Source: Salinivirgaceae bacterium
Lineage (GTDB): Bacteria > Bacteroidota > Bacteroidia > Bacteroidales > SZUA-534
Reading direction: 5' to 3'
DNA: 64,000 nucleotides
Assembly: GCA_017551905.1 (NCBI GenBank)
Contig: JAFZKK010000091.1
Span: 1 to 64,000, forward strand
This document shows positions 9,863-40,149 of this stretch, one piece after another. The notes beneath the pieces were generated by a model, which was given only the letters and a program-made list of their open reading frames with translations, did not search any database and was not told the DNA's origin. The translations under genes were made by a program, and so were the position numbers. How positions within the stretch are numbered: position 1 is the stretch's first letter; every line of letters begins with the position of its first letter.

Positions 9863-12436
9863 ATGAGCAAAATCCGAAACTTAATGTTGGCATTTGCAGC
9901 TGTGCTTGCAGCCACAACAACAATGGCCCAAAGCGGCTTCAATTATCAAGCAGTTATCCGCAATAATGGCGAAGTTATTAGCAACCAGGATGTTACGCTT
10001 CGTATTAGCATTATGAATGGTAACGAGGTATGCTATCAAGAAACGCAAAAGACAAAAACCAATGCCTACGGCAACATAACCGTCAGTGTTGGCGGCGGAA
10101 CGGCTACCATTGGAACTTTCAGCGCTGTGCCTTGGGCTACTATGCAGCTGACATTGAAAACCGAAGTTGATACGGACGGCTCCGGCAATTTTGTTGACAT
10201 GGGACAAACACCTATTCAGCCCGTGCCGTTTGCTCAATACGCCAAGAAAACCAGCGAGATAGACAACCCCAGCGAGATTCAGATTCAAGCTAAAGCCAAC
10301 ACCGGCGACGACGAGGCGCTGTTTGCTGTTAAAGACGAGGACGGCAACGTTGTTTTTGCAGTTTATAAAAACGGTGTCCGCGTGTATGTTGACGAGAACG
10401 ATGCGAAGGCTGCCAAAAGCGGTTTTGCTGTGGCTGGCCGCTCAGGAAAAGCCGATGAAGGCAATCAGTTTTTTGTTGTAAACAAAGAAGGCACAAAGGT
10501 TTATGTTGACTGTGAGAACGACAAAGCAGCTAAAGCCACATTTGCAGTGGCGAGCGTTAGAAAAGGAAAAACTGCAGAGGATAACATGCTCGTAATCAGT
10601 GAGGAAGGTACAAAAGTTTATGTTGACGGTGAGAACGACAAAGCAGCCAAAGCCACATTTGCCGTGGCAAGTGTAAGGAAAGGAAAAGCCGCAGAAGATA
10701 ACATGCTCGTAATCAGTGAGGAAGGTACAAAAGTTTATGTTGACGGTGAGAACGATAAAGCAGCCAAAGCCACATTTGCAGTGGCAAGTGTAAGGAAAGG
10801 AAAAACCGCAGAGGATAATGTGCTCGTAATCAACGAGGAAGGCACAAAAGTCTTTATCGATGATGATGCCAATGGCAAAGCCGCCAAGGCCACGTTTGCT
10901 GTGGCAAGTGTGAAAAAAAGCAAAGACGGCCAAACAGCCAACTCAAACTATTTGCTCATTGATTCCGACAGCACCCGTGTTTACATTGACGAAGCCAACG
11001 ACAGCAAAGCCGCCAAGAGCGGATTTGCAGTTGCCGGAAAGAGCGCAAGCAAAGCTGGTGAAACACGCAATCTTTTCAATATCGACCTTACAAAGAATGC
11101 CGAAACTCTCGATAGCGTAAACCGCATTTATTGGTATCCATCAAAGAACGCTTTTATGGCTGGTAATCTGAAAGTTGACAGTGCCGCGCAGGTTGGAACA
11201 AACTCATTTAATGCCGGTTTCCAAAACACAGCCAAAGGCGAGTATTCTCAAGCGCTGGGATATAAATCCACAGCCATTGGCGATTACTCTACCGCCATTG
11301 GCCGTGAAGCCTACGCAGGAGCCGACAATGCATACGCTTTTGGCGATTCAGCACAGGCTCAAGGCGAAGGAAGTTACGCATTTGGTACTGGAGCATTAGC
11401 TACTGGTAAAGCAAGTATTGCTTTTGGCAGTGAAAGTTGGGAAACATTTCCTGGATATAGCTGGCGCAAATATAGAGCTCCCGCCAAAGCCATTGGCGAC
11501 TATTCTTATGCTATCGGTTCTGGTGCCATAGCTATGTATGGCTCATTGGCATTTGGAATAAACGCAAATGCATCATCCGAATTGTCAGCAGCAATAGGAA
11601 TGGAGACAACTGCCAGCGGACATAATTCCACTGCTATTGGATATGGTGCAAACGCTATTGGAAATAGTTCTTTTGCCATTGGATTTGGTGTTAATGCCGT
11701 TGGAAATAATTCTACAGCAATGGGGTCTTCTACAACAGCCAATGGAGAAACTTCTACAGCAATGGGTTATTATACAACAGCTAAATCATCTTATGAAGTG
11801 GTGGTAGGAAAACATAATACCGACTATACACCTAATGCAGGGCAATCACCCGGAATACCTTATTGGTATGAAAATGACAGATTGTTCGTTGTTGGTAATG
11901 GTAAAGATGATTTAACTCATAGCGACGCTTTGATAATCTACAAAAACGGCAATGCAGAATTTAGAGGCAACATATATCCTGCTACAACAAAATATAATTG
12001 GCAAAGCGTAATGCCAACATACACTTTAGGCACAAATACTAATCGCTGGGATACGGTTTATGCCAACGTTATTAATGCCACAAATGGCACAATCCAAACC
12101 TCCGACCAACGCCTGAAAACCAACATCAAACCGCTTGAGCGCGCATTGGATAAAGTGCTAACACTCAACGGCGTAACCTACGAGTGGCGCGTTAAGGAGT
12201 TTCCCAACAAGAATTTCGATAGCAACCGCCACGTGGGCGTTCTGGCGCAGGAGCTTGAGGCTGTTCTGCCCGAGGCCGTTGAGACTGGCGCAGATGGTTA
12301 TAAATCGGTCAATTACAGCAACATAACACCACTGCTCATTGAGGCCGTAAAAGAGCTGAAAGCCGAGAACGATGAATTGAAAAAAGAGATGGCCGAGGTG
12401 AAGAAAATGTTAGAGGAATTGATGAAGAAACAATAA
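9863..12436 (+). CDS. repeat-rich surface protein 1 (39-aa repeats, YadA-like head, S74 tail)
   Basis: 857 residues, apparently secreted: a signal peptide ends at TMA (residue 22). Residues 23-140 form a conserved N-terminal domain (SGFNYQAVIRNNGEVISN) shared with two paralogues here. About 169-410 hold six tandem 39-residue repeats built on EGTKVYVDGENDKAAKATFA. About 449-640 are YadA-head-like repeats of the STAIGYGANAIGNSSFAIG kind. A peptidase S74 (endosialidase chaperone) domain begins at TSDQRLK with the Ser747/Lys752 self-cleavage dyad, and a C-terminal coiled coil follows (about 825-857). Trimer formation is therefore likely. There is no YadA membrane anchor and no obvious type IX sorting domain, so the route to the surface is unknown. 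Role in adhesion is inferred. Confidence 0.85.
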   Translation: MSKIRNLMLAFAAVLAATTTMAQSGFNYQAVIRNNGEVISNQDVTLRISIMNGNEVCYQETQKTKTNAYGNITVSVGGGTATIGTFSAVPWATMQLTLKTEVDTDGSGNFVDMGQTPIQPVPFAQYAKKTSEIDNPSEIQIQAKANTGDDEALFAVKDEDGNVVFAVYKNGVRVYVDENDAKAAKSGFAVAGRSGKADEGNQFFVVNKEGTKVYVDCENDKAAKATFAVASVRKGKTAEDNMLVISEEGTKVYVDGENDKAAKATFAVASVRKGKAAEDNMLVISEEGTKVYVDGENDKAAKATFAVASVRKGKTAEDNVLVINEEGTKVFIDDDANGKAAKATFAVASVKKSKDGQTANSNYLLIDSDSTRVYIDEANDSKAAKSGFAVAGKSASKAGETRNLFNIDLTKNAETLDSVNRIYWYPSKNAFMAGNLKVDSAAQVGTNSFNAGFQNTAKGEYSQALGYKSTAIGDYSTAIGREAYAGADNAYAFGDSAQAQGEGSYAFGTGALATGKASIAFGSESWETFPGYSWRKYRAPAKAIGDYSYAIGSGAIAMYGSLAFGINANASSELSAAIGMETTASGHNSTAIGYGANAIGNSSFAIGFGVNAVGNNSTAMGSSTTANGETSTAMGYYTTAKSSYEVVVGKHNTDYTPNAGQSPGIPYWYENDRLFVVGNGKDDLTHSDALIIYKNGNAEFRGNIYPATTKYNWQSVMPTYTLGTNTNRWDTVYANVINATNGTIQTSDQRLKTNIKPLERALDKVLTLNGVTYEWRVKEFPNKNFDSNRHVGVLAQELEAVLPEAVETGADGYKSVNYSNITPLLIEAVKELKAENDELKKEMAEVKKMLEELMKKQ

Positions 12437-12441
12437 AACGC

Positions 12442-12471
12442 GGTAGAGACGTGCCATGGCGCGTCTCTACC
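12442..12471. repeat. REP palindrome, family 1, copy a
   Basis: A 30-bp near-perfect palindrome centred on GCCATGGC with arms GGTAGAGACG and CGTCTCTACC, five bases after the stop codon of surface protein 1. Three more copies cluster around the RAYT transposase at 36.3-37.1 kb. The single asymmetric position (GACGTGCC...GCGCGTC) gives each copy an orientation. As a strong hairpin it may also stop transcription or protect the mRNA 3' end, although only an A-rich stretch follows. Confidence 0.85.
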
Positions 12472-33185: not shown

Positions 33186-36100
33186 ATGAAAATGAAAACT
33201 ATGAGATTTCTACTTGTGGCTGTTGCTTCTTTTCTTGCTGCAACAGCATCGATGGCTCAAAACGGCTTCAATTATCAGGCGGTAATCCGTGATGCTGATG
33301 GCAATCTTCTTGCCGGACAAAACATCGCCTTGCGCATAACGCTGACAAGCGAGAATGCCGACACCACCTACTATCAAGAGATGCAGACAAAGCTGACCAA
33401 CGCCTATGGTGTGGTTTCGATAGTTGTGGGCGAAGGCACGGTTCTGAGCGGATACTTCTCGAAAGTGCCTTGGAACAGCGGCAACGTGTATATGAAAACC
33501 GAGTTTGACCCCACAGGCGTTGGCACTGATGACTTGTTGGTGACTGTTGGCACTACACGGCTGCAATCGGTGCCGGTGGCCGAGTACGCCAAAAAGACCA
33601 GCGAGGTTGAAAACCCTAAAAACATTAAGATACAAGCCACAAACGAGACCGGAGAAGAAGAGGCTCTGTTTGAGGTGAAAGACAAAGACGGCAATGTTGT
33701 GTTTGCCGTGTATAACGACGGTGTCCGTGTCTATGTTGACGACACCAAGCCCAACAGCGGCGGCAAAGCTGCCAAAAGCGGATTCGCAGTGGCCGGACGC
33801 TCAGGAAAAACAGGCGAGGCCAACACCTATTTTGCCGTGAACGATGAAGGTACACGTGTTTACGTTGACGACGAAGGCCCCAACAAAGCCGCCAAAGCAA
33901 AATTTGCCGTTGCAAGTGTGGGCAAGAGCAAAACCGGCGAGAGCCTTGTCGATAACTATCTGGTTGTCAACAAGCAAGGAACAAAGGTCTATGTTGACGG
34001 CAATGAGAACGTTGGCGATAAAGCCGCCAAAGCCACTTTTGCTGTGGCAAGCGTACGCAGCAAAAAAGACACTGTGGCCGAGGATTTCTTTGTTATAAAC
34101 AACGAAGGAACCAAGGTGTATGTTGACGACACCGCCAGCGGCAAAGCCGCTAAAGCCACATTTGCCGTGGCTGGCAAGAGTGGCAAAGCCGACAACAACA
34201 ATCTGTTTGTTGTAAACCAGTCTGGTACAAAAGTTTACGTTGACGAAGCCGACAACAAAGCTGCCAAAGCTACATTTGCCGTGGCTGGCAAGAGCGGCAA
34301 AAGCGTTGGCGACAACTATTTTGTTATCAACGATGAGGGAACCAAAGTATATGTTGACGGTGTTAATGGCCAGAAGGCTGCAAAAGCCACATTTGCTGTT
34401 GCAAGCGTGCGCAACGGCAAAGCCGAAACCGCTGAGGATTTCTTCCTCATAAACAAAGACGGAACCAAGGTGTTTATTGATGAGGAGACGAACAATAAGG
34501 CCGCTAAAGCCACATTTGCTGTTGCAAGTGTGAAAAAAGGCAAAGACGGCCAAACAGCCAACCCCAATTATCTTATTGTTGACTCCGACAGCACCCGTGT
34601 CTATATTGAAGATGGTAGTAATGGCAAGGCCGCCAAGAGCGGTTTTGCAGTAGCAGGGAAGAGCGGTGGCAAAGACGGTGAGACGACTCGAAACCTTTTC
34701 AATATCGACCTTGCCAAGAGCGCCGAAGTGCTCAATGGCGAGAACCGCGTTTATTGGTATCCTGCCGAGGAAAAGAATGCTTTTATGGCTGGTAATCTGA
34801 AGGTTGACAATGCTAACGATGTTGGTACCAACTCGTTCAATGCCGGTTACCAAAACAAAGCCAGCGGCGACTTCTCGCAAGCATTTGGTTATAAATCGGA
34901 AGCCACGGGCGAGACATCAATAGCCATTGGTAACCAAGCCAAAGCCACGGGCAAAAGTTCATTTGCCTTTGGCGAGAACACAACCGCCGCAGGCGAAAGC
35001 TCGGTAGCCATTGGTGTTGACGCGCAAACTGGCTTAAATGCCAAAAATTCCTTTGTATTTGGAAAATCGGCAATAGCCACAAAAGAAAATGGTTATGCGT
35101 TTGGTGATGGAGCTAAAGCCACAGGAAACAATAGCTATGCATTGGGTGCACTAGCAGAAGCAAAGGGTTCTTATAGCTATGCTTTGGGTAGTGGGGTAAT
35201 AGTACCTCACTGGAATAGTCAAGGACAACTTATTCGTATTGATACTATGTTAGCACCAAAAGCATCCGGGGCTTATAGCTATGCCTTTGGACCAGGAGCT
35301 AAGACATCTGCTTCTTATGCATTTGCTTTTGGCTACAATACAACTGCCAGCGAATATAAATCCACAGCAATTGGAGATGGCACAACAGCTAGTGGACAGT
35401 CTGCCATAGCAATGGGAAGGGAATCCATAGCCAGTTCAGATGCTTCCTCCGCAATGGGAGGATACACCACCGCAAGCGGTGCTTATTCTACAGCAATGGG
35501 ATATAAGACCAAGGCAAGCCAATATGCATCCACAGCAATGGGATATCAAACCACCGCAAGCGGATACATTTCTACTACAATGGGATGTAAAACCACTGCC
35601 AGCGGATACTATTCAACTGCAACTGGCTATGGAACAACGGCAAAATCATATGGCGAGTTTGTTGTTGGTAGTTTTAATACAGATTATACTGTTAGTCAAT
35701 ATGGGCTTAATAATCCTTCGTCTTCTGACAGGGTGTTTGTTATAGGAAATGGTGGTAGTTTAATTTGGAACAATAGTACATCAAGATATGATACGACAAG
35801 AAGCGATGCAATGATTGTTTATAAGAGTGGCAGTTCACAATTTGGTGGTAGTGTGTATCCTATGACCACAAATAAATATAATTTAGGCACTTCAGCCACA
35901 CTTTGGGCCAAGGTATACGCTACCGGTGGAGTTCAAACAACCTCCGACCAACGCCTCAAAACCAATATAAAACCGCTTGAGCGAGCATTAGATAAAGTGC
36001 TGACGCTCAATGGTGTAACGTACAATTGGCGAGTTGCGGAGTTCCCCGAGAAGAATTTCGACAACTACCGTCATGTGGGCGTTCTGGCGCAAGAGCTTGA

Positions 36101-36302
36101 GGCTGTCCTGCCAGAGGCTGTCGAGACTGGTGAGGATGGTTATAAATCAGTCAACTATGCAGGAATAACCCCATTGCTCATCGAAGCCATCAAAGAGCAG
36201 CAGCAGATAATAAACACCCTGCAAAGCGAGAAAGACGCGCAGCAAAAGGAGATAGAAGAACTGAAAGCGCAGATGAAGGAGATTTTGGAGAAATTGAAAT
36301 AA
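33186..36302 (+). CDS. repeat-rich surface protein 2 (39-aa repeats, YadA-like head, S74 tail)
   Basis: 1,038 residues, the longest of three paralogues. The signal peptide ends at SMA (residue 24). The conserved N-terminal domain (NGFNYQAVIRDADGNLLAGQ) is more diverged than in proteins 1 and 3. About 179-505 hold eight repeats on the EGTKVYVD...AAKATFAVA theme, followed by YadA-head-like repeats (about 552-822, SAIGDGTTASGQSAIAMG kind), an S74 chaperone domain with Ser920/Lys925 (TSDQRLK) and a C-terminal coiled coil rich in Gln, Glu and Lys. It follows tRNA-Arg(ACG) and is not preceded by a hexamer array. Probably exported and trimeric; there is no membrane anchor domain. Head repeats and S74 are also typical of phage tail spikes, but no other phage gene is nearby. 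Confidence 0.85.
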   Translation: MKMKTMRFLLVAVASFLAATASMAQNGFNYQAVIRDADGNLLAGQNIALRITLTSENADTTYYQEMQTKLTNAYGVVSIVVGEGTVLSGYFSKVPWNSGNVYMKTEFDPTGVGTDDLLVTVGTTRLQSVPVAEYAKKTSEVENPKNIKIQATNETGEEEALFEVKDKDGNVVFAVYNDGVRVYVDDTKPNSGGKAAKSGFAVAGRSGKTGEANTYFAVNDEGTRVYVDDEGPNKAAKAKFAVASVGKSKTGESLVDNYLVVNKQGTKVYVDGNENVGDKAAKATFAVASVRSKKDTVAEDFFVINNEGTKVYVDDTASGKAAKATFAVAGKSGKADNNNLFVVNQSGTKVYVDEADNKAAKATFAVAGKSGKSVGDNYFVINDEGTKVYVDGVNGQKAAKATFAVASVRNGKAETAEDFFLINKDGTKVFIDEETNNKAAKATFAVASVKKGKDGQTANPNYLIVDSDSTRVYIEDGSNGKAAKSGFAVAGKSGGKDGETTRNLFNIDLAKSAEVLNGENRVYWYPAEEKNAFMAGNLKVDNANDVGTNSFNAGYQNKASGDFSQAFGYKSEATGETSIAIGNQAKATGKSSFAFGENTTAAGESSVAIGVDAQTGLNAKNSFVFGKSAIATKENGYAFGDGAKATGNNSYALGALAEAKGSYSYALGSGVIVPHWNSQGQLIRIDTMLAPKASGAYSYAFGPGAKTSASYAFAFGYNTTASEYKSTAIGDGTTASGQSAIAMGRESIASSDASSAMGGYTTASGAYSTAMGYKTKASQYASTAMGYQTTASGYISTTMGCKTTASGYYSTATGYGTTAKSYGEFVVGSFNTDYTVSQYGLNNPSSSDRVFVIGNGGSLIWNNSTSRYDTTRSDAMIVYKSGSSQFGGSVYPMTTNKYNLGTSATLWAKVYATGGVQTTSDQRLKTNIKPLERALDKVLTLNGVTYNWRVAEFPEKNFDNYRHVGVLAQELEAVLPEAVETGEDGYKSVNYAGITPLLIEAIKEQQQIINTLQSEKDAQQKEIEELKAQMKEILEKLK

Positions 36303-36331: not shown

Positions 36332-36361
36332 TGTAGAGACGCGCCATGGCACGTCTCTACA
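36332..36361. repeat. REP palindrome, family 1, copy b (inverted orientation)
   Basis: 30-bp palindrome 29 bases after surface protein 2. The asymmetric positions (GACGCGCC...GCACGTC) show that it is in the opposite orientation to copies a, c and d. A half-copy of the second palindrome family (TAGGGACGC) lies just before it at 36305-36313. Confidence 0.85.
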
Positions 36362-36411
36362 TTTTTATGGAGCATTTGGAAATTATTTGTGCAACCGCAT
36401 ATTAATGCTTT

Positions 36412-36442
36412 TTTGTGATTGTTACATAATATGTTATATTTG
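36412..36442 (+). promoter_or_regulatory. promoter of the RAYT transposase
   Basis: TTTG (36412-36415), 19-base spacer, TATATTTG (36435-36442): an ideal Bacteroidota promoter, 27 bases before the ATG. Confidence 0.65.
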
Positions 36443-36469
36443 TTAGAAATCAATAAAATACCATTATAA

Positions 36470-37054
36470 ATGCCAAACGATTTGTTTAAAAACCGTTTCC
36501 GCATACCGTCGGCACGTGCCCAGTGGCACCATTACAATGGCGGGATGTATTTTGTAACCATCTGCACAGCCGGTCGGGAACATTTTTTCGGTGAAATAAC
36601 AAACAGCGAAATGAGGCTGTCGGCAATTGGGGAATATACTCGACAATGTATCGAAAACACATCTCAACATACCAAATACGCACAGGTGCCACTATATGTT
36701 ATAATGCCCAATCACTTGCATTTGATTGTCATTATTGATGACGCACAATTGGTAGAGACGTGCCATGGCGCGTCTCTACATGCAAATCATGGCGAATCTC
36801 TACAATGGCGTGTATCTTCGGAAGGCAAAAATCAAAAAATGCAAGATGTTGCAAACCATCAAGGTCGATTATCGGCAGTCATTGGTTTATTTAAACAATC
36901 CGTTACCCGTCATGCAAATGCCAACAATATTCCTTTTGCTTGGCAAACCCGGTTTCACGACCACATCATCCGCCATACCGATGAAATAAACCATTTTGCC
37001 GAATACATCCAAAACAACGTAGCCAAATGGGATACCGATGAATTTAATGTGTAA
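36470..37054 (+). CDS. REP-associated tyrosine transposase (RAYT, Y1/HUH family)
   Basis: 194 residues. The HUH pair is His82 and His84 in YVIMPNHLHLIVII, and the nucleophile is probably Tyr179 in FAEYIQNNVAKW; the N-terminus GGMYFVTICTAGREHFFGEI is typical of RAYT proteins. Such single-domain enzymes nick and join single-stranded REP hairpins and are thought to spread REP elements. Matching palindromes flank the gene on both sides. A third copy (36752-36779) is inside the reading frame, encoding about residues 95-104 (ETCHGASLH), between the HUH and Tyr motifs, and a degenerate half-copy follows. The frame stays open across the insert, so the protein may still work with an extra loop. Confidence 0.88.
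   Translation: MPNDLFKNRFRIPSARAQWHHYNGGMYFVTICTAGREHFFGEITNSEMRLSAIGEYTRQCIENTSQHTKYAQVPLYVIMPNHLHLIVIIDDAQLVETCHGASLHANHGESLQWRVSSEGKNQKMQDVANHQGRLSAVIGLFKQSVTRHANANNIPFAWQTRFHDHIIRHTDEINHFAEYIQNNVAKWDTDEFNV
36752..36804. repeat. REP palindrome, family 1, copy c, inside the transposase gene
   Basis: A full 28-bp palindrome (36752-36779) followed by a decayed half-copy (CATGGCGAATCTCTACA, 36788-36804). It keeps the transposase frame open. Orientation is the same as copies a and d. Confidence 0.85.
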
Positions 37055-37081
37055 ATTGATATTTGAACGTTGTGTTGTTAT

Positions 37082-37111
37082 TGTAGAGACGTGCCATGGC
37101 GCGTCTCTACA
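37082..37111. repeat. REP palindrome, family 1, copy d
   Basis: 30-bp palindrome 27 bases after the transposase stop, with T-rich sequence following. It is inverted with respect to copy b, so the transposase gene is bracketed by oppositely oriented REPs. Confidence 0.85.
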
Positions 37112-37227: not shown

Positions 37228-40149
37228 ATGGGACTTTTCGATAAATTCAAGGCAAAATTCAATTTCGGCATGGGCGTTGCCTTCGAAACGGGAAAAGGCA
37301 TTGCGCCCGATTTTGGCGAGGCCGTTAAATACTACACCAAGGCGGCCGAAGCAGGCTACGCCGATGCGCAGAACAACCTGGGCGTGTGTTATCTGAACGG
37401 GCGCGGAGTGGCGCAGGATTACGCAAAAGCCGTGGAGTGGTTCGAGAAAGCTGCTGCACAAGGAATCGCTTTAGGGCTGAATAACTTGGGATTATGCTAT
37501 CAAAACGGAACTGGGGTGCCGCAGGATTCTGCCAAAGCCTTTGAATTGTTTAGCCAAGCGGCTGCACAAAACAATGCCATGGCGCTATACCACATGGGTG
37601 TATGCTATGAAATCGGCTCGGGTGTGAAGCAGGATATGGCAAAGGCCATTGAATGGTTCGAGAAGGCGGCAACACAAGGAAACGTGACGGCGCAAGGCCG
37701 TTTGGGTTACATTTATTATGTCGGGCAGGGCGTGGAGAAAGACTATGCCAAATCGGCCCAATGGTACACCAAGGCGGCAGAGCAGGGCGATGGCTACTCA
37801 CAATTCAACCTGGGTATATGCTATGAATTAGGAAACGGCGTGGAGCAGAATATGGAGAAAGCCGTTGAATGGTACACCAAAGCGGCCGAACAAGGCGACC
37901 TCAAGGCCATAAACAACGTTGGAGTCTGCTATTTAAATGGGAAAGGCGTTGCGCAGGATAGCACCAAAGCCGTGGAATGGTTCACTAAAGCGGTTGAAAA
38001 AGGCGATGCGTCGGGACAATTCAATCTGGCCAGTTGCTATGAGTTTGGAAGTGGTGTTGAGCAGGATTACATGAAGGCCGCCGAGTTGTTCGGAAAAGCC
38101 GCCGCACAAGGAAACACCGATGCTAAAGCGAAACTGGAATATCTGCAAAAAAATGGGTTGGGCGAGCCTATGAACGTCGAATTGCTGACCAAAGCCGCCA
38201 ATGAAGGCAACGCGGCCGCGCAATGCAATCTGGGTTATTGCTGCAAGATGGGCGAAGGCGTGGAACAAGATTACGTGAAAGCCGTTGAGTGGTACACCAA
38301 AGCCGCCAATCAAGGCGACGCAGCCGCACAATACAATCTGTCCATTTGCTACGCCAACGGGCAAGGCGTTGAAAAAAATGACGAGTTAGCCACTCAATGG
38401 CTTGAGCAGTCGGCTGGCAAGGGATACGCACTCGCACAAAAGAAAACACGGGAAGTGTTTGAATGCTTCTTGACAAGTGCCACGTTAGGCTATGCCCACG
38501 CACAGTGCGTTGTGGGCGACTGTTACCGAAAAGGCTGCGGTGTGCAGCAGGATTTTCAGAAAGCCTTTGAGTGGTATACCAAAGCGGCTGAGAAGGGATA
38601 TGCCGAGGCGCAAAACAGGTTGGGAATCTGTTATTCCGACGAGATGGGTGTTGAACGTAATCTCGAAAAAGCCGTCGAGTGGTACACCAAATCGGCTGAA
38701 CAGGGATTCGCACCAGCGCAGAGCAATTTGGGCGTTTTCTATTTAAACGGATATGGAGTTGAGAAGAATCCTAAAAAAGCAGTCGAGTGGTACACCAAAG
38801 CAGCCGAACAGGATTATGCTACCGCACAATACGACCTGGCTCGGATTTATGAGGATGGCAAGGTTGTCAAGCAGAATTACAAGAAAGCATTCGAATTGTA
38901 CTCCAAATTGGCCGAACAAGGCAATGAAGCCGCGCTTCACAGTATGGCACAGTTTTATGAAGAAGGAAAGGGTGTGGAGCAGGATTATGAGAAAGCCATT
39001 GAGTTGTACACAAAATGCTTAGAGCAGGGAAGCGATTTGATGAAAAGTATGACGAAAATGAGTTTGCACTTCTGCACCGAAAAGTATAACGAACAGAAAA
39101 GAAAAGCTTCGCAGAAAAAGTCGGCAGAGCAAGGTGATGCTGAGGCGCAATTCGAAATGGGCAAAAAATACTATTATGGTATTGGTACTGAACAAGATAA
39201 AAAGAAAGGCATTGAGTTGCTCACCAAAGCAGCCAAGCAGGGGCACGCTGAAGCGCAATATCATTTAGGTCTCTTTTATTCGTTAGAGGACAGCGAATTT
39301 TTCGATTCTGAAAAATCAGTCATGTGGACCACCAAAGCCGCCGAGTTAGGGCTCGATGCGGCACAATACGTTTTAGGCAGTTATTACGCCGAAGGAAACG
39401 TTGTTGAGCAGGATTACGAAAAAGCCCTCGAATGGTACACCAAAGCAGCCGAGCAAGGAAACTTTGGCGCACAATACAGCATTGGTTATCTTTATGAGAA
39501 CGGTTTAGGCGTTGAACAGGATTTACAGAAAGCCTTTGAATGGTACACTAAAGCCGCTGAACAAGACTATCCCGACGCTCTATGCCGGCTGGGCTTCCTC
39601 TATAACGATGGAGAAGGCGTGGAGCAGGATTATCAGAAAGCATTTGAATGGTTCTCCAAGGCTGCCGAACAGGAATTCGCTACGGGACAAATATGTATGG
39701 GAATGTGTTATGAAGGAGGGAAAGGCGTTGCCAAAGATTACAAGAAAGCGTTTGAATGGTACTCCAAGGCTGCCGAGCAGGGAGATATTGTAGCACAAAC
39801 ACGTGTTGGCTTCTTCTATTTTGTCGGAAATGGAGTCGAAAAGAATTACGAGAAGGCTCTCGAATGTTATTATAAAGCCGTTGAACAAGATGAATGCGCC
39901 AATGACGCAATATCGAGCATTGCCATTATGTACAAAAATGGAAAAGGCGTTGCCCGCGATTATCAGAAAGCCTTCGAATGGTTCTTAAAAGCTGCCGAAC
40001 TTGACGATGATACAGCACAATTCGATGTCGGCCTGTGCTACGAGAAAGGCTATGGCGTTGCAGTTGACCTTGACGAAGCCTTCCGCTGGTATGAAAAGGC
40101 CGCCGAACAAGGGCATAAAGGTGCGGAAAAGAAATTGGAAAATAAATGA
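37228..40149 (+). CDS. giant Sel1-repeat protein
   Basis: 973 residues, almost wholly made of about 25 Sel1-like repeats of 36 residues (consensus NLGVCYENGxGVEQDYxKAVEWYTKAAEQG-type). Two repeats carry insertions, near residues 405-425 and 605-635. There is no signal peptide or membrane segment, so it is probably cytoplasmic. Sel1 repeats form alpha-solenoids that bind proteins and often act in signalling or host interaction; the partner is unknown. A TAGCTTTG box at 37165-37172 is a likely promoter. A palindrome of the second REP family follows the stop codon. Repeats differ at DNA level, so the array is older than the 39-residue repeats of the surface proteins. Confidence 0.88.
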   Translation: MGLFDKFKAKFNFGMGVAFETGKGIAPDFGEAVKYYTKAAEAGYADAQNNLGVCYLNGRGVAQDYAKAVEWFEKAAAQGIALGLNNLGLCYQNGTGVPQDSAKAFELFSQAAAQNNAMALYHMGVCYEIGSGVKQDMAKAIEWFEKAATQGNVTAQGRLGYIYYVGQGVEKDYAKSAQWYTKAAEQGDGYSQFNLGICYELGNGVEQNMEKAVEWYTKAAEQGDLKAINNVGVCYLNGKGVAQDSTKAVEWFTKAVEKGDASGQFNLASCYEFGSGVEQDYMKAAELFGKAAAQGNTDAKAKLEYLQKNGLGEPMNVELLTKAANEGNAAAQCNLGYCCKMGEGVEQDYVKAVEWYTKAANQGDAAAQYNLSICYANGQGVEKNDELATQWLEQSAGKGYALAQKKTREVFECFLTSATLGYAHAQCVVGDCYRKGCGVQQDFQKAFEWYTKAAEKGYAEAQNRLGICYSDEMGVERNLEKAVEWYTKSAEQGFAPAQSNLGVFYLNGYGVEKNPKKAVEWYTKAAEQDYATAQYDLARIYEDGKVVKQNYKKAFELYSKLAEQGNEAALHSMAQFYEEGKGVEQDYEKAIELYTKCLEQGSDLMKSMTKMSLHFCTEKYNEQKRKASQKKSAEQGDAEAQFEMGKKYYYGIGTEQDKKKGIELLTKAAKQGHAEAQYHLGLFYSLEDSEFFDSEKSVMWTTKAAELGLDAAQYVLGSYYAEGNVVEQDYEKALEWYTKAAEQGNFGAQYSIGYLYENGLGVEQDLQKAFEWYTKAAEQDYPDALCRLGFLYNDGEGVEQDYQKAFEWFSKAAEQEFATGQICMGMCYEGGKGVAKDYKKAFEWYSKAAEQGDIVAQTRVGFFYFVGNGVEKNYEKALECYYKAVEQDECANDAISSIAIMYKNGKGVARDYQKAFEWFLKAAELDDDTAQFDVGLCYEKGYGVAVDLDEAFRWYEKAAEQGHKGAEKKLENK

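Follow-up and report, generated by a model that had tools for sequence, protein, structure and literature searches.

The window (the whole 64,000-nucleotide stretch of DNA analysed here) contains, at 36470-37054 on the plus strand, an open reading frame for a protein of 194 amino acids. The original prediction took this protein to be a RAYT (TnpAREP), and both family and fold comparisons agree. It matched the NCBIfam model REP_Tyr_transpos (NF047646) with an E value of 1.7e-15, at a score of 57 bits that lies under the curated cut-off of 80 bits, and its AlphaFold2 model, built from a 79-sequence alignment (mean pLDDT 85), had as its best solved-structure match in Foldseek 4er8 (E 4e-07), the E. 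coli RAYT in complex with a REP hairpin. A Pfam search with the full-length protein returned no matches, and PHROGs returned a single weak match whose own function is unknown. On its IS200/IS605-type fold the protein carries the HUH motif, the tryptophan and the single catalytic tyrosine of a RAYT; these residues (H82-L-H84, W158-Q159 and Y179) occupy alignment columns that are invariant or nearly so.

Four copies of a palindrome of 28–30 bp, GTAGAGACGTGCCATGGCGCGTCTCTAC or its inverse, occur in the window, compared with 0 in 100 dinucleotide shuffles. Two flank the RAYT gene: a left REP (36332-36361, minus strand) and a right REP (37082-37111, plus strand), each followed by a T run and predicted to form an RNA hairpin (z = -3.9 and z = -4.9, respectively). 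Over 30 nt, each is the exact reverse complement of the other, and an asymmetric T.G position marks the left copy as inverted and the internal copy as oriented like the right one. This internal REP (36751-36780, plus strand) falls between the HUH and Tyr motifs, is translated in frame as residues 95-104 (VETCHGASLH), and is followed after 7 nt by a decayed half-copy, CATGGCGAATCTCTACAA (about 36788-36806, plus strand), which is read in the same phase and encodes HGESLQ where the intact copy encodes HGASLH. Folded as RNA, the internal REP region was more stable than 200 of 200 shuffles (z -4.1). The fourth copy is dispersed (12442-12471, plus strand), 6 nt 3' of the stop codon of a YadA-head/S74-type gene. 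The number of copies, the inversion of the left one and the in-frame placement of the third beside a half-copy are as originally described.

The internal REP lies in a linker that joins the HUH domain to helix C (residues ~89-121; 36734-36832, plus strand), the subclass-wide site of in-frame REPs. Residues 100-115, which include the half-copy and some of the REP-encoded residues, had pLDDT values <50 and are predicted to form a disordered loop, in line with the surface loop that the original prediction proposed to look for. All four copies in the window carry GTAG at one end and CTAC at the other (double-foot). In this they differ from the one-footed REPs of enterobacteria, to whose REP pairs the original prediction had likened the flanking copies. 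In a BIME or REPIN, two inverted REPs move as a unit; the flanking REPs here are inverted, yet 720 nt apart with a gene between them.

These observations support the gene being a RAYT that has cognate REPs in inverted orientation on either side and another within it. By sequence, it probably belongs to TnpAREP subclass 2.4 (Quentin et al. 2018, PMC6006769), which is RAYT group 4 of Bertels et al. 2017, and would form the REPtron of a Bacteroidales bacterium. This subclass is found in Cyanobacteria and Bacteroidetes, with a median protein length of 194 aa, and double-foot REPs are typical of it (PMC6006769). The motifs NHLH, WQ and YIQNNV and the length of 194 aa are near the subclass consensus (NH[IFV]H, WQ, YIxNNP, about 194 aa); close relatives of the window RAYT have NHIH and YIxNNP-like motifs.

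REPs and RAYT paralogues in the window genome

The palindrome recurs in the rest of the genome, as the original prediction expected. Across 3.15 Mb in 161 contigs, the window REP was found in 17 copies at ≤3 mismatches, so that the GTAG-footed REPs beside the RAYT (36332 and 37082) belong to a dispersed family, and a reversed control pattern gave 0 matches in the same search. A wider class, GTASAGACGY...RCGTCTSTAC, has the same feet and numbered 59 copies genome-wide with several distinct cores; many copies differ in core from the window REP, with cores such as GATTAATC, TAGCGCGCTA, TTGCGCGCAA, GGCGCGCC and ATGTGCACAT. Most REP copies in this genome are single double-foot palindromes. The window RAYT itself is present once, its nearest paralogues in the same genome being 51-56% identical; multiple near-identical transposase copies, as in a mobile IS200/IS605 element, were not found in this genome, and PF01797 detected only two further Y1 genes. 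One paralogue, at C89 (52% identical), has a different linker palindrome, and one of its upstream flanking REPs shares the core of that palindrome, TAGCGCGCTA.

REPs with the core TTGCGCGCAA also lie in frame in other genes. On contig C77 (L061:1238-2905, minus strand), one such REP (VETLRATSLQ) is part of a 555-aa, DNA methyltransferase-like protein with an NPPY-type motif and no Pfam match. On contig C48 (L056:1428-2927, minus strand), another sits in the C-terminal sorting-like tail (VGRDVARNVSTIKI) of a BspA-type LRR protein, and on contig C49 (L057, minus strand) a third lies within a similar long ORF. REPs in frame in unrelated genes of this genome indicate that coding insertions are tolerated.

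Elsewhere in the same genome, L007 and L009-L015 contain many copies of a REP variant, GTACAGACGTGCCATGGCGCGTCTCTAC, with one foot GTAC instead of GTAG. Several of these variants share a left flank, TGCGTCCCTACATA or CGCGTCCCTACATA, that is the end of another REP half, as if composite units had spread jointly. Within the window, two related genes (9863-12436 and 33186-36302) each have a window REP 6-30 nt past the stop codon, and both encode many KAAKATFAVA repeats. By Pfam, the second encodes YadA head repeats and an S74 endosialidase chaperone; the REP and T run that follow it may have an additional role as a terminator. Adjoining the RAYT, 37228-40149 encodes a 973-aa protein that is nearly all Sel1 repeats (23 stretches).

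Linker palindromes among RAYT relatives

We assembled 164 distinct RAYTs from the same order and beyond, and counted a linker palindrome at ≥10 paired bases. Such a palindrome was present in 115 of them (70%). Palindrome density was 6.1 per kb in the linker, compared with 0.25 in the HUH part, 0.28 in the C-terminal part and 0.20 in the background; in the flanks it reached at most 3.3 per kb, in the best 100-bp bin. About a third of the relatives without a linker palindrome (~14 of 49) have inverted REP halves separated by a loop of 33-78 nt, and these halves outscore all codon shuffles of their own linker. In one sub-branch (L077, L079, L045, L046, L150 and L151), inverted arms GTAGGGCTGTC...GACAGCCCTAC, encoding VGLSYYGSR ... 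RLPQCDSPT around a loop of 33-67 nt, take the place of a single palindrome. We rejected the notion that palindrome-free linkers are simply shorter, as the median length was 40 aa without an intact palindrome and 43 aa with one. The same similarity makes it doubtful that the REP added about ten residues, as had been proposed.

In 45 of 73 loci, the internal core matched the core of a flanking REP at 17 or more of 18 bases; permuted flanks gave a mean of 2.3. The feet occur in two reading phases only (73 and 41, with 0 in the TAG phase), counts that partly reflect our choice of intact ORFs. The exact place of the palindrome within the linker is not conserved, and REP fragments, tandem copies and half-copies are frequent there. 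In keeping with the original prediction, homologues do not all share the same residues at this position: peptides and phase differ, and it is the palindrome that is present in most of them. A cyanobacterium, Planktothrix rubescens (L097), has the window's exact 28-mer, including the T.G mismatch, upstream of a 38%-identical RAYT and a one-mismatch form within the RAYT gene; that genome has 43 double-foot REPs. Because the palindromes came from a palindrome search, palindromy as such does not count as independent evidence, unlike core identity, tree signal and sole-copy status.

Conservation was examined on a FastTree tree built without the linker. The internal core required 16 changes, compared with 46 for shuffled labels (minimum 41); reading phase required 20, compared with 27.5 (minimum 23); and presence of the internal palindrome required 31, compared with 42 (minimum 35). 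Phase was common to 84% of pairs at 65-75% identity and to about 45% of pairs at large. Across the 68 same-phase pairs whose proteins were 65-80% identical, the REP 28-mer was identical at a fraction of 0.90, whereas the adjacent linker DNA scored 0.34 and third positions at identical residues 0.56. Conservation of the internal palindrome thus goes well beyond what coding alone would require. In addition, the window RAYT and a 67%-identical relative (L174) have an identical 28-mer in different reading phases, which shows that DNA, not peptide, is retained. In two orthologous pairs (L019/L026 and L125/L128, 86-87% identical) the cores have changed through paired substitutions by which the palindrome is preserved; exchange for another REP could also produce such changes. 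L180 is without the element despite 85% identity to L134, and in this pair, the closest available for defining the inserted unit from an empty site, linker turnover was too high to show the unit.

Of 34 gene/genome cases examined, 16 had no copy at ≤3 mismatches anywhere in the genome other than that in the linker (10 of 21 in the A[AG][GC]GCATGC core group and 6 of 13 in the CAAAATTTTG/CAATGCATTG core group). The sole copies were checked against RAYT coordinates and all lay inside the gene; examples are the genomes of Algoriphagus iocasae DSM 102044 and Massilibacteroides vaginae. A generic pattern that admits intact double-foot REPs whatever their core matched only the RAYT-internal REP in 12 of 62 genomes, and G396 had two such REPs, each in its own RAYT. 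G435, whose RAYT palindrome misfits the generic pattern, was omitted from the sole-copy count, and G136, which has an imperfect copy upstream of the gene, from the core-specific count. Draft genomes can miss repeats; several of the sole-copy genomes are isolates or at least 95% complete.

A proposed cognate site within the transposase gene

The original prediction read the locus as a transposase gene hit by its own substrate. Because the linkers of most relatives hold a cognate palindrome, and because it is the sole copy in so many of the cases tested, chance insertion out of a dispersed pool does not serve to explain the pattern in general; where a genome has no other copy, such an event cannot be the current situation. 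The self-hit reading is therefore too narrow, and retention of a cognate site built into the gene explains the cases better overall. With modest confidence, we favour the view that the internal REP is a recurrent element of the RAYT lineage, retained as DNA and fitting the protein's specificity, and would act in cis as the protein's own site. It looks maintained, not accidental. Under this proposal, the internal REP would be the single-strand hairpin site of the transposase, carried within its gene; the RAYT would bind, and could nick, the single-stranded internal REP or, alternatively, would bind the hairpin in its own transcript. Such self-binding would keep the RAYT level low, and the internal copy would preserve a template for re-seeding REPs. 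Attenuation or feedback via the internal RNA hairpin is plausible. We infer that the window RAYT binds its REP and that the internal copy has an autoregulatory or seeding role.

The same linkers can be read in terms of tolerated self-insertion (Quentin et al. 2018), by which a RAYT keeps spreading its REP and often inserts it in or close to its own gene, only hits in the flexible linker that keep the frame survive, and a functionless copy is refreshed by re-insertion. Several features fit this account: a linker that is disordered, lies outside the fold core and is littered with REP fragments, tandem copies and half-copies; frequent changes in presence of the palindrome; REPs in other ORFs of the window genome; and feet confined to the two open phases (73 and 41, none in the TAG phase, among ORFs selected as intact). 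However, palindromes are denser in the linker than in the unconstrained flanks, almost half of the cases (16 of 34) have no other copy to re-insert from, and agreement in phase, seen in 84% of pairs that are 65-75% identical as opposed to about 45% at large, favours descent over fresh insertion. We therefore consider tolerated self-insertion rather unlikely as the general account; tolerated, refreshed insertion is possible for REP-rich genomes such as that of the window, with its two flanking and many dispersed copies. For the window gene taken by itself, retention and refreshed insertion would be inseparable, and the case for retention is drawn from the family. Counting against retention, the element comes and goes frequently (31 changes in presence across the tree) and L180 lacks it, so the internal element is dispensable over time.

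It is improbable, in our judgement, that internal REPs are mainly hitch-hikers, carried as RAYT genes cross species, with the sole-copy genomes as recent recipients before decay or spread. The subclass is scattered over distant phyla, the same 28-mer REP lies beside the distant RAYT of P. rubescens, and many families include sole-copy genomes; but plasmids seldom carry RAYTs (3 of 72,556 records), and many RAYTs with near-identical palindromes are just 60-75% identical, so that recent transfer from a common source is no explanation for them. Selection on the REP-encoded peptide, VETxxxxSL or RDVxxxxVST, seems to us very improbable. These peptides recur within each phase and phase is partly inherited, yet the same DNA is kept in two phases with unrelated peptides, synonymous positions are conserved too, and the segment is predicted to be disordered; we rejected the peptide-level explanation because the two phases carry the same DNA.

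Retention of a built-in site would go further if the cognate hairpin were a permanent functional part of the RAYT coding sequence, and often the only site left. The main in vivo target of the protein would then be its own gene or transcript, for self-limitation or as a private seed, and dispersed REPs would be by-products. We offer this tentatively, and incline slightly against it. RAYTs are widespread, single-copy and long-lived, and what they do is a question of long standing. If a RAYT gene carries its target, and often its sole target, the role of the RAYT becomes testable in one gene.

Relation to known systems

The window RAYT shares with the E. coli RAYT/TnpAREP and its REPtron the same fold, an HUH motif with a single Tyr, and GTAG-footed REPs around the gene; E. 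coli REPs differ in being one-footed with bulges and belong with subclass 2.2, whereas the window copies are double-foot. In E. coli, TnpAREP binds REP in single-stranded form, cuts it at a CT dinucleotide beside the structure and requires the GTAG foot (PMC8266576). For subclass 2.4, binding, cleavage or expression data were not found in the literature searched. In-frame palindromes in protein genes are likewise known from the GTAG REPs that Di Nocera et al. 2013 (PMC3733652) listed inside many other ORFs and from Rickettsia palindromic elements. Those, however, strike diverse unrelated genes; here the host is the RAYT itself, and nearly always one linker.

The closest likeness is to subclass 2.4 itself, whose hallmark is that REPs lie mostly within tnpAREP genes, generally between HuH and Y and with the frame intact, a feature unique to this subclass (PMC6006769). 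With its protein of 194 aa, double-foot REPs and an in-frame REP between HuH and Y (36751-36780), the window locus is a new instance of this published pattern. What is new here is the set of measurements on 164 relatives. Quentin et al. 2018 (PMC6006769) regarded the insertions as tolerable, the region being peripheral; in contrast, the cognate match, the conservation at the DNA level and beyond coding, and the sole-copy genomes suggest that the element has been retained, probably by selection rather than by repeated re-acquisition.
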